Source: Aquabacterium humicola
Lineage (GTDB): Bacteria > Pseudomonadota > Gammaproteobacteria > Burkholderiales > Burkholderiaceae_C
Direction: 5' to 3'
Length of the DNA: 64,000 nucleotides
Assembly (NCBI RefSeq): GCF_030167915.1
Contig: NZ_JARGNB010000005.1
Span: 310,001-374,000, forward strand
Of this stretch, positions 3,320 through 21,281 are shown piece by piece. Position 1 is the first letter of the stretch. Each line of letters begins with the position of its first letter. The notes below the pieces were generated by a model. The model saw only the letters and a program-made list of their open reading frames with translations, had not been told where the DNA came from and did no database searches. The position numbers and the translations under genes were made by a program.

Positions 3320-3552
3320 GGACGGCACACCACCTCGTTGGCCGGTATCCGGGCTGGCGGAGACGGCCCCTGTGCCCTTCCCGGACGCTTCATCGCGGCC
3401 AGTGGGATGTCGACAGGAGCTGAAGGTGGAAACCTTCGTCCGCTTACCGTTGCGGGGGCAGCTCAGGTTGAGGTTTCGCCGGTGGCGTCGCCTGTCCTGA
3501 TTCCCGTTGAACTGCGCCGCCGCAAGACTGCTTCGGCGCGAGCACCAACGGC
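3320..3552 (-). promoter_or_regulatory. Cobalamin (adenosylcobalamin-type) riboswitch upstream of btuB
   Basis: Read on the minus strand, the leader has the family's conserved blocks in order. These are TTGGTGC (about 3549-3543), GGGAATCAGGACAGGCG (3505-3489), GCTGCCCCCGCAACGGTAAG (around 3455), CCCACTGGC, GGGAAGGGC, and the B12 box AGCCCGGATACCGGC (3355-3341). Past the B12 box, GTGCCGTCC (3328-3320) is perfectly complementary to GGACGGCAC (3276-3268), a likely part of the expression platform that spans the approach to the btuB ATG. No T tract follows, so translational control is more likely than termination; that point is inference. The boundaries are approximate. The rest of the 343-base gap before nth (3553-3586) shows nothing recognisable. 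Confidence 0.93.
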
Positions 3553-3586
3553 GTGCATCATACCGTCGCTTGCGGCGCGGGCCGCT

Positions 3587-19827: not shown

Positions 19828-21101
19828 GCGGCTCCCAGGGCCTTGACCTTGAACGAGTCGGCGTACTTCGCCGGGTCCTTGCCATCCCAGACGACGCCGT
19901 CGAGCAGCTTCGACGCGCGCATCGGGTCCTTCGGCACGTTGATCTTCAGCGCCGACGCGGCCTGCTTGTACAGCTCGATCTGGTTGATCTGCTTCGCGAC
20001 GGCGAGGTAGTCAGGGTGGTCCTTCAGCAGGCCCCAGCGCTTGTGCTGCGTCAGGAACCACATGCCGTCGCTCAGGTACGGGAAGGTCACCGTGCCGTCG
20101 TTGAAGAACTTCATGTGGTTCGGATCGTCCCAGGTCTTGCCCAGGCCGTTCTGGTAGCGGCCGAGGATGCGCTGGTTGATCGCGTCGACGCTGGTATTGA
20201 CGTAGCTCTTGTCGGCCACGACCTCGGCCATCTTCATCTTGTTCTGCAGGCCGGCATCGATCCAGCGGCCGGCCTCGATGATGGCCATCGTCACCGCGCG
20301 CGCGGTGTTCGGGTACTTCTTGACGAAGTCCGCCGTCGTGCCGAGCGCCTTTTCCGGATGGTCCTTCCAGATGTCCTGCGTCGTCACGCCCGTGATGCCG
20401 ATGCCGTCCATGATGGCGCGGTGGCCCCAGGGCTCGCCGACGCAGTAGCCGTCCATGTTGCCGACACGCATGTTGGCCACCATCTGCGGCGGCGGCACGG
20501 TGATGACCTTGGCGTCCTTCATCGGATTGATGCCGACGCTGGCGAGCCAGTAGTACAGCCACATCGCGTGCGTGCCGGTCGGGAAGGTCTGCGCGAAGGT
20601 GTACTCGCGCTTGTCGGTGGCCATCAGCTTGGCCAGCGACGGGCCGTCGACCGCGCCCTTGTCGGCGAGCTTCTTCGACAGCGTGATGGCCTGGCCGTTG
20701 TGGTTCAGGTTCATCAGCACGGCCATGTCCTTCTTCGGCCCGCCGATGCCCAGGTGCACGCCGTAGACCAGGCCCCACAGCACGTGGGCCATATCCAGCT
20801 CGCCGTTGACCAGCTTGTCGCGCACGCCGGCCCAGGAGGCCTCCTTGGTCGGGATGATCTTGACGCCGTATTTCTTGTCGAAGCCCAGCATCGAGGCCAT
20901 CACGACGCTCGCGCAGTCGGTCAGCGGGATGAAGCCGATGCGCACCTCTTCCTTCTCGGGCTTGTCGGAGCCCTGCGCATACACCGCGGCCTGCAGGCCG
21001 GGGATCATGCCGCTGGCACCGGCGGTGGCAGCGGTCGCCGCTGCGGCCTTGATGACGGTACGGCGTCCCATGTCGATCGGGTCCTTCGGGCTGGATGGCA
21101 T
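19824..21101 (-). CDS. nrtA: Nitrate/nitrite-binding protein with Tat-type signal
   Basis: Periplasmic nitrate receptor (425 aa) of the NrtA/NasF family. A twin-arginine-like leader (DMGRRTVIKAAAATAATAG) with a cleavage region near AVYAQG directs export. The conserved body includes VRIGFIPLTDCASVVMAS, GVRDKLVNGELDMAHVLWGLVYG, GPKKDMAVLMNLNHNGQAITLS and the pocket segment GYCVGEPWGHRA. The start at 21101 is chosen because an upstream in-frame ATG (21152) lies inside the leader terminator. The presence of a signal argues against this being the cytoplasmic sensor NasS, which is a homologue without one. Confidence 0.93.
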   Translation of the reverse strand: MPSSPKDPIDMGRRTVIKAAAATAATAGASGMIPGLQAAVYAQGSDKPEKEEVRIGFIPLTDCASVVMASMLGFDKKYGVKIIPTKEASWAGVRDKLVNGELDMAHVLWGLVYGVHLGIGGPKKDMAVLMNLNHNGQAITLSKKLADKGAVDGPSLAKLMATDKREYTFAQTFPTGTHAMWLYYWLASVGINPMKDAKVITVPPPQMVANMRVGNMDGYCVGEPWGHRAIMDGIGITGVTTQDIWKDHPEKALGTTADFVKKYPNTARAVTMAIIEAGRWIDAGLQNKMKMAEVVADKSYVNTSVDAINQRILGRYQNGLGKTWDDPNHMKFFNDGTVTFPYLSDGMWFLTQHKRWGLLKDHPDYLAVAKQINQIELYKQAASALKINVPKDPMRASKLLDGVVWDGKDPAKYADSFKVKALGAA

Positions 21102-21119
21102 GTGAGTCTTTCGAGCTGG

Positions 21120-21177
21120 AAAAACAAAAGGCGTCCGCACCGTCGGGCTCACTGATGGAGCCTTGGGTGGGGACGCC
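21120..21177 (-). terminator. Leader terminator (attenuator) controlling nrtABD
   Basis: On the minus strand GGCGTCC (21177-21171) pairs with GGACGCC (21136-21130) and is followed directly by TTTTGTTTTT (21129-21120). It ends 18 bases before the nrtA ATG. The 34-base loop region contains a further small stem (GGCTC / GAGCC). Position downstream of the two ANTAR-type hairpins makes it the probable target of NasT antitermination. Confidence 0.9.
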
Positions 21178-21191
21178 GTCGTCCTGGCCGT

Positions 21192-21256
21192 GACCGGTCG
21201 TCGTTGACTGGTCCGTGCAGTTCAATGTGCGGGCCCGTCGCCGTTGACCGGCCCGC
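21192..21256 (-). promoter_or_regulatory. Two-hairpin ANTAR recognition motif in the nrt leader RNA
   Basis: Hairpin 1 (21256-21229) has a 7-bp lower stem GCGGGCC/GGGCCGC-type pairing, a 1x1 mismatch, GTC/GAC, and the hexaloop AACGGC. Hairpin 2 (21213-21192) has GACC/GGTC, a 1x1 mismatch, GTC/GAC, and the hexaloop AACGAC. A 15-base linker separates them. Both loops have A at position 1 and G at position 4, the hallmark of RNAs bound by ANTAR antiterminators such as EutV, NasR and NasT. The leader then runs into the terminator at 21177. Confidence 0.88.
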
Positions 21257-21266
21257 AGGGACTATC

Positions 21267-21281
21267 GCAATCGCCGTGCCA
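21267..21281 (-). promoter_or_regulatory. Sigma-54 promoter of nrtABD
   Basis: TGGCACGGCGATTGC matches the RpoN consensus (TGGCAC-N5-TTGC), with GG and GC exactly 10 bases apart. The start point would fall near 21256, at the first base of ANTAR hairpin 1. An NtrC-type activator site would be expected upstream, within or near the nasT 3' end; I did not identify one. Confidence 0.85.

Follow-up and report, generated by a model that had tools for sequence, protein, structure and literature searches.

A sigma-54 promoter and a three-hairpin ANTAR-type leader before nrtABC as a putative two-step switch of nitrate uptake

Between nasT, the gene of an ANTAR protein, and the nitrate transporter operon nrtABC lies a leader that raises two questions, namely how the uptake of nitrate is controlled at this locus and which protein reads the RNA. 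The locus was analysed within a 64 kb stretch of DNA (C40:310001-374000, referred to here as the window) of a genome of 7.4 Mb in 44 contigs. The reading favoured here, with a probability of roughly 0.72, is a two-step switch in which a sigma-54 start is followed by ANTAR antitermination through a pair of hairpins, H2 and H3, to control nitrate uptake.

Judging from the promoter, the first step would be the firing of the sigma-54 promoter under nitrogen limitation, after which RNA polymerase, as the structures and their conservation suggest, would make the hairpins H1, H2 and H3 in turn. Left unaided, H3 would be displaced by the 3' arm of the terminator and transcription would end before nrtA. 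An active ANTAR dimer would load on the early canonical hexaloops of H1 and H2 and would then move to H3 or stabilise it, blocking the terminator so that nrtABC is read. H2, whose end lies 7 nt from H3, is the likely P1 and H3 the likely P2 of the working pair with this linker, and H1, which stops 43 nt short of H3, probably serves for early loading.

Layout of the leader and its operon

The sigma-54 box, the hexaloops AACGGC and AACGAC, the terminator and the nrtA start that the preliminary description had listed from 21281 to 21101 on the minus strand are all present (Table 1), the whole leader being contained between the end of nasT (21375) and the nrtA ATG (21101). The letters TGGCAC-N5-TTGC provide both the -24 and the -12 element of a sigma-54 promoter. 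The proposal of a sigma-54 box combined with an attenuator of the ANTAR type before nrtABC, with nasT directly upstream, is supported at the level of the sequence; the predicted start on the first base of H1 is roughly reproduced, with a +1 predicted just inside H1, and in 60 of the 67 leaders that have an H1 this hairpin begins no more than about 6 nt away from the predicted +1. The attenuator itself had to be redrawn. Both of its two described hairpins exist, but the competitor of the terminator is a third one, H3, which had been overlooked, and the terminator stem is longer than the 7 bp claimed, with runs of 7 and 4 bp separated by a mismatch and a further stem inside. H3 and the 5' arm of the terminator have the letters GGCGTCC (7 bases) in common, and H3 and the terminator are mutually exclusive; neither H1 nor H2 overlaps the terminator.

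Table 1. Features of the locus (window positions, except where a contig or locus prefix is given)
Feature	Position	Strand	Remarks
nasT	22013-21375	-	receiver-like domain and ANTAR RNA-binding domain; PF03861 E 1.6e-20; start deduced by back-counting along the translation
Sigma-54 (-24/-12) box TGGCACGGCGATTGC	21281-21267	-	TGGCAC-N5-TTGC
Predicted +1	~21255	-	inferred from the sigma-54 box
H1, promoter-proximal hexaloop hairpin	21257-21228	-	loop AACGGC, C:G closing pair
H2, middle hexaloop hairpin	21213-21192	-	loop AACGAC, C:G closing pair
H3, third hairpin	21184-21171	-	GGAC-GACGGC-GTCC
Intrinsic terminator	21177-21130	-	5' arm 21177-21166, 3' arm 21141-21130
Terminator T-tract TTTTGTTTTT	21129-21120	-	
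nrtA, substrate-binding protein	21101-19824	-	PF13379 338.8 bits; Tat-type (RR) N-terminus
nrtB, nitrate ABC transporter permease	19827-18904	-	TIGR01183 248.6 bits, cut-off 209.05
nrtC, nitrate ABC transporter ATPase	18884-18087	-	TIGR01184 340.3 bits, cut-off 291.8
Sigma-54 box for small RNA	18072-18058	-	3' of nrtC
Candidate sigma-54-dependent small RNA, ~94 nt	18046-17953	-	predicted
ANTAR-PilJ protein (ANTAR protein, two PilJ stretches at the C-terminal end)	G000:C40:300736-302049 = L021:4736-6049	+	
nirB	C40:294981-297368		

Folding of 21256-21108 gave -70.7 kcal/mol (z -4.74), with 0 of 200 shuffles as stable, and the part with H1 and H2 (21256-21192) reached z -2.97, matched by 2 of 200; H2 alone (21222-21188) did not go beyond shuffles, 20 of 200 being equally good (z -1.58). 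When the transcript was folded as it grows, H3 appeared at lengths of 86-117 nt and was replaced by the terminator at 126 nt. A combined scan for a sigma-54 box, an A1/G4 hexaloop, a second hexaloop and a T-run matched the 64-kb window once, at 21281, and an Rfam scan at curated cut-offs returned no family at the position of the leader. The window also holds a cobalamin riboswitch at 3323-3564 on the minus strand (71.3 bits).

The operon does serve the transporter only, as had been stated, since nirB lies elsewhere with a sigma-54-like box of its own, TGGCATTCGTATTGC, about 30 nt before its ATG as read by eye, a distance too short for such a leader. The region before the MFS transporter gene of this genome was considered as a further leader and rejected, a GGCAC-N5-TTGC box and strong hairpins being found there by eye with no clear A1/G4 pair.

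The promoter of nasF in Klebsiella oxytoca is a sigma-54 promoter. The nasF leader, which is antiterminated by the ANTAR protein NasR, resembles the present one in its A1/G4 hexaloops, C:G closing pairs and terminator before nitrate assimilation genes, but it has two hairpins against three here, and NasR senses nitrate directly via a NIT domain, as far as the excerpts of PMC7496416 go. The excerpts of PMC3795266 and PMC5424462 describe for Paracoccus denitrificans a nasT that adjoins the genes whose leader NasT controls, as it does here, and a nasA leader of which two hairpins were studied; that NasT works with NasS, which was not found in the present genome, and that leader controls nasABGHC, whereas the one described here precedes the transporter alone. 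With the EutV dual hexaloop the present leader has in common a P2 shared between hairpin and terminator, and it differs in an extra upstream hexaloop and in a P2 loop starting with G (PMC3369931 and PMC8934654, in part). Judged by its sequence, the leader is a variant of this known kind: H1 and H2 supply two hairpins with A1/G4 hexaloops and C:G closing pairs, H3 overlaps the terminator as the second hairpin of a pair should, and the genome has four ANTAR protein matches, one of which is nasT directly upstream. The loop of the overlapping hairpin, GACGGC, does not have A1, and it is for this reason that the leader is classed as a variant and not as a plain ANTAR dual-hexaloop member. A literature search, judged from its listings, yielded nothing on a three-hairpin ANTAR leader.

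A further sigma-54 box lies 3' of nrtC and is followed by a candidate small RNA, for which single folds predict a hairpin, a single-stranded UAUCUCCUCAGC, a GGGC/GCCC hairpin and a terminator. The same layout follows nrtC in five of six relatives examined and is absent in G143, a member of the same genus. A search with the box plus TCTCCTCAG, a pattern by whose construction the core is constant among matches, gave one match each in 14 of 150 genomes and none in the backward control; judged by fold and terminator, 13 of the 14 look genuine (the exception is L238), and 12 of these 13 likely copies lie within 0.7 kb after nrtC. The candidate matched nothing in Rfam above the cut-offs, and alignment-based folding gave just four pairs, in none of which both bases change, this small number being attributed to hairpins that were not aligned with each other.

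The leader among relatives and its likely counterpart, the narK RNA family

The compact fusion of promoter and antiterminator, which the preliminary description had singled out as notable, proved to be the usual layout. Among the 80 nasT-relative loci fetched, the best of 184, a sigma-54 box lies 3' of nasT in 72 and no matching box in 8. In 71 of them nrtA comes next, no more than 1.2 kb away, the other nine including contigs that end early. These 71, together with the window's own, made up the 72 leaders that were parsed, and an H3-type hairpin is present in 70 of them. Upstream of H3, canonical hexaloops (A1/G4, C:G closing pair, at least 5 bp) number one in 41 of the 70 leaders, two in 28 and none in 1, so counted; with 4-bp stems allowed, 37 have one and 33 two. 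One canonical upstream hexaloop appears in about 2% of shuffles, as against 69 of the 70 H3-bearing leaders having at least one. The inner pairs of H1 (67 leaders) and of H2 are kept through several pair types, and the outer pairs break more often; H3 hardly varies, changes being confined to its third pair (GC 55, AT 15), and covariation therefore says little for H3. The combined scan matched 63 of the 80 loci on the nasT strand (17 fail), none on the opposite strand and none of 400 shuffles, figures to be read with the scans tuned on such leaders and the relatives not independent. Twenty further loci, with a nasT 41-61% identical, have H3 in 14, all with A1, and upstream of it one hexaloop in 13 and two in 1. 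A quick tree of NasT (70 rows) calls for at least 13 changes in the number of hairpins and for at least 5 in base 1 of the H3 loop. The layout of sigma-54 box, hexaloops and terminator is common in these Burkholderiales.

A search was made with a model, R1, built from 15 leaders that include the window's own. In this genome a single leader was returned, again the window's own (E 2.4e-21; next match 3.1), and in the family R1 leaders occur in 86 of 150 genomes. Twenty stretches around R1 matches were inspected: in 15 the leader precedes a gene of the nrtA-like, nirB-like or MFS type, and in the other 5 no served gene could be recognised. Elsewhere in the family the leader is thus a regulon element, and in this genome one operon was found. 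Six of those 15 stretches (L282, L284, L286, L292, L293 and L298) carry two leaders, before nirB-like, MFS or nrtA-like genes, and some of the six have three hexaloops as read by eye.

The Rfam family RF03032, the narK RNA, is reportedly due to Weinberg et al. in 2017. With 23.3 bits against a gathering cut-off of 43.2, the window leader falls outside the family by that measure, and in a search of the whole genome it ranks at E 0.099, with two unrelated places scoring higher; when the targets up to E 10 were followed up through gene maps and their letters by eye, the two places that outranked the true leader showed no such leader and were discarded. The RF03032 consensus starts with GGCaCAgcucUUGCU, a sigma-54-like box, continues with a hairpin with the loop AACGGC and then has ACGACAAAGACGUCGC, which is able to form CGAC-AAAGAC-GUCG; unlike the window leader, the model includes neither the middle hairpin nor the remainder of the terminator. 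Across 300 genomes of the order there were 54 matches at E 0.01, chance ones such as this genome's own among them, and 3 pass the cut-off. The 30 best loci include 27 with a sigma-54 box, two hexaloops and a T-run, as against 0 of 30 on the opposite strand and 1 of 600 shuffles, and the next queried gene is nrtA in 19, MFS in 4, a CmpA-labelled binding protein in 1 (where nrtA is present) and none in 6. From these sequences we infer that the narK RNA is an ANTAR leader plus its promoter, and it looks like the same element as the window leader. A literature search on narK RNA and RF03032, outside which the source paper lay, found no link between narK and ANTAR.

The reader protein and the nitrate input

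An ANTAR protein, NasT, is encoded directly upstream of the leader, as had been proposed, and other proteins may read the RNA besides NasT, for whose usual sensor, NasS, no gene was found. NasT has matches in the PDB to EutV (6wsh) and NasR (4akk). Tyr164, Arg168 and Met172, which contact RNA in EutV according to the part of PMC8934654 available, fall on Y, R and M of NasT in an alignment of the two proteins. The NasT receiver has A at the position of K in YLVKP of EutV, and its sequence suggests that it is not phosphorylated.

Of the NasS-NasT system, a NasT-like ANTAR protein is present and a cytoplasmic NasS was not found in the genome, where the PF13379 matches are NrtA (340.5 bits, Tat-type) and a CmpA-like protein (286.9), the next scoring 99.9; NasS-like proteins encoded next to nasT in three further genomes reach 255-301 bits. 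When 15 genomes, this one included and G104 being just 76% complete, were searched for NasS, all 23 matches at E 1e-55 were closer to the NrtA or the CmpA-like query than to the three NasS queries. A NasS in the guise of either protein was considered and is less likely though conceivable: NrtA shares 40-52% identity with the three NasS queries but begins with a Tat-type N-terminus, and the CmpA-like protein is 26-30% identical to them. At two loci (L073 3894-6509 and L155 3915-5999) the leader is followed by an NrtA-like frame with no evident Tat-type start, NasS-like in this respect, and then by another NrtA-like gene, whose product has 34% identity to the window NrtA.

PilJ domains sense nitrate, as in NarX. 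The ANTAR protein with PilJ stretches, encoded near nirB and divergent from the MFS transporter gene, is a possible one-component nitrate sensor, and a doubtful but conceivable alternative is that this protein, somewhat like NasR, reads the leader rather than NasT. It draws on the gene's divergent position and on two genomes, G011 and G133, which keep nrtABC with a sigma-54/hexaloop/terminator leader (L240 and L241) and no adjoining nasT: a search at E 1e-20 gave no nasT match in either, at E 1e-5 G133 has no ANTAR match other than the ANTAR-PilJ protein, and G011 has it together with one weak ANTAR match of 31 bits. Such relatives have the protein as this genome does, which argues that NasT may not be the only reader. 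Weighing against the alternative, the H3 hexaloop of G133 looks eroded by eye, and in 5 of 20 genomes scanned (G129, G103, G064, G006 and G108) the nasT beside nrtA is the single ANTAR match. The two sets of genomes taken together indicate that either protein may serve; in this genome NasT is the most probable reader, a role that it may share with the ANTAR-PilJ protein.

The probable working pair and the loop of H3

The choice of hairpins within the two-step switch depends on what has been published for other ANTAR sites. As described in the parts of PMC7496416 and PMC8934654 consulted for this comparison, the second hairpin of the known sites overlaps the terminator, and lengthening the linker by 20 nt put an end to antitermination by EutV; H2 and H3 are taken as the working pair because of these two facts, with H1 as an extra early site. 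A pair of H1 and H3 was set aside on account of its 43-nt spacing.

An unlikely alternative is that H1 and H2 alone form the antiterminator bound by NasT, H3 being merely part of the terminator. In its favour, H1 and H2 have the sole canonical A1/G4 loops here, and H3 has G1 and is capable of a tetraloop: the predicted fold of the window H3 is GGACG[ACGG]CGUCC at -6.0 kcal/mol, better than the hexaloop, and the A1 version of H3 is predicted as an open hexaloop at -4.0 kcal/mol. Base 1 of the H3 loop is G in 30 of 70 leaders (GACGGC in 16, GAAGGC in 9, GATGGC in 5), and in these, the window included, G1 can pair with C6. Descriptions of ANTAR sites give the loop an A1 and a G4, and in the structure of EutV A1 makes no specific contact, its proposed role being to prevent pairing across the loop; EutV would, as PMC8934654 suggests in the part seen, reject folding of the tetraloop type. 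The G1 of H3 and its tetraloop fold count against the two-step switch, as A1 has been described for ANTAR sites. Two canonical upstream hairpins are found in 18 of the 30 leaders with G1 in H3 as against 10 of the 40 with A1, counts that are suggestive, with too few independent comparisons (2 to 5 pairs) on the supported branches of the tree to establish a link. Against the H1 and H2 reading stands the absence of overlap between either hairpin and the terminator, in contrast to the published second hairpins (PMC7496416, in part), and the presence of H3 in 70 of 72 leaders when two canonical upstream hairpins occur in 28 of 70 (33 with 4-bp stems). That the attenuator is unregulated, its terminator merely setting the level of nrtABC or yielding a short leader RNA that acts elsewhere, is very improbable: trans-acting leader RNAs exist, and with NasS not found NasT has no known nitrate input, but the hexaloop letters, the closing pair and the overlap of H3 with the terminator are far above shuffles, beside an ANTAR gene.

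Put together as a single proposal, which is tentative, the leader would be a three-site ANTAR switch in which two promoter-proximal canonical hexaloops load the dimer and an H3 lacking A1 is self-closed by G1:C6, in which NasT without NasS would be interchangeable with the ANTAR-PilJ nitrate sensor, and of which the narK RNA would be the same element, promoter included. Many natural leaders break the A1 rule in exactly the hairpin that competes with the terminator, and the leader extends the two-hairpin picture of ANTAR switches. It raises the question of how a nitrate signal would reach NasT if there is no NasS, or whether sensing falls to a second ANTAR protein, and it points to a function for narK, an RNA family of the database.
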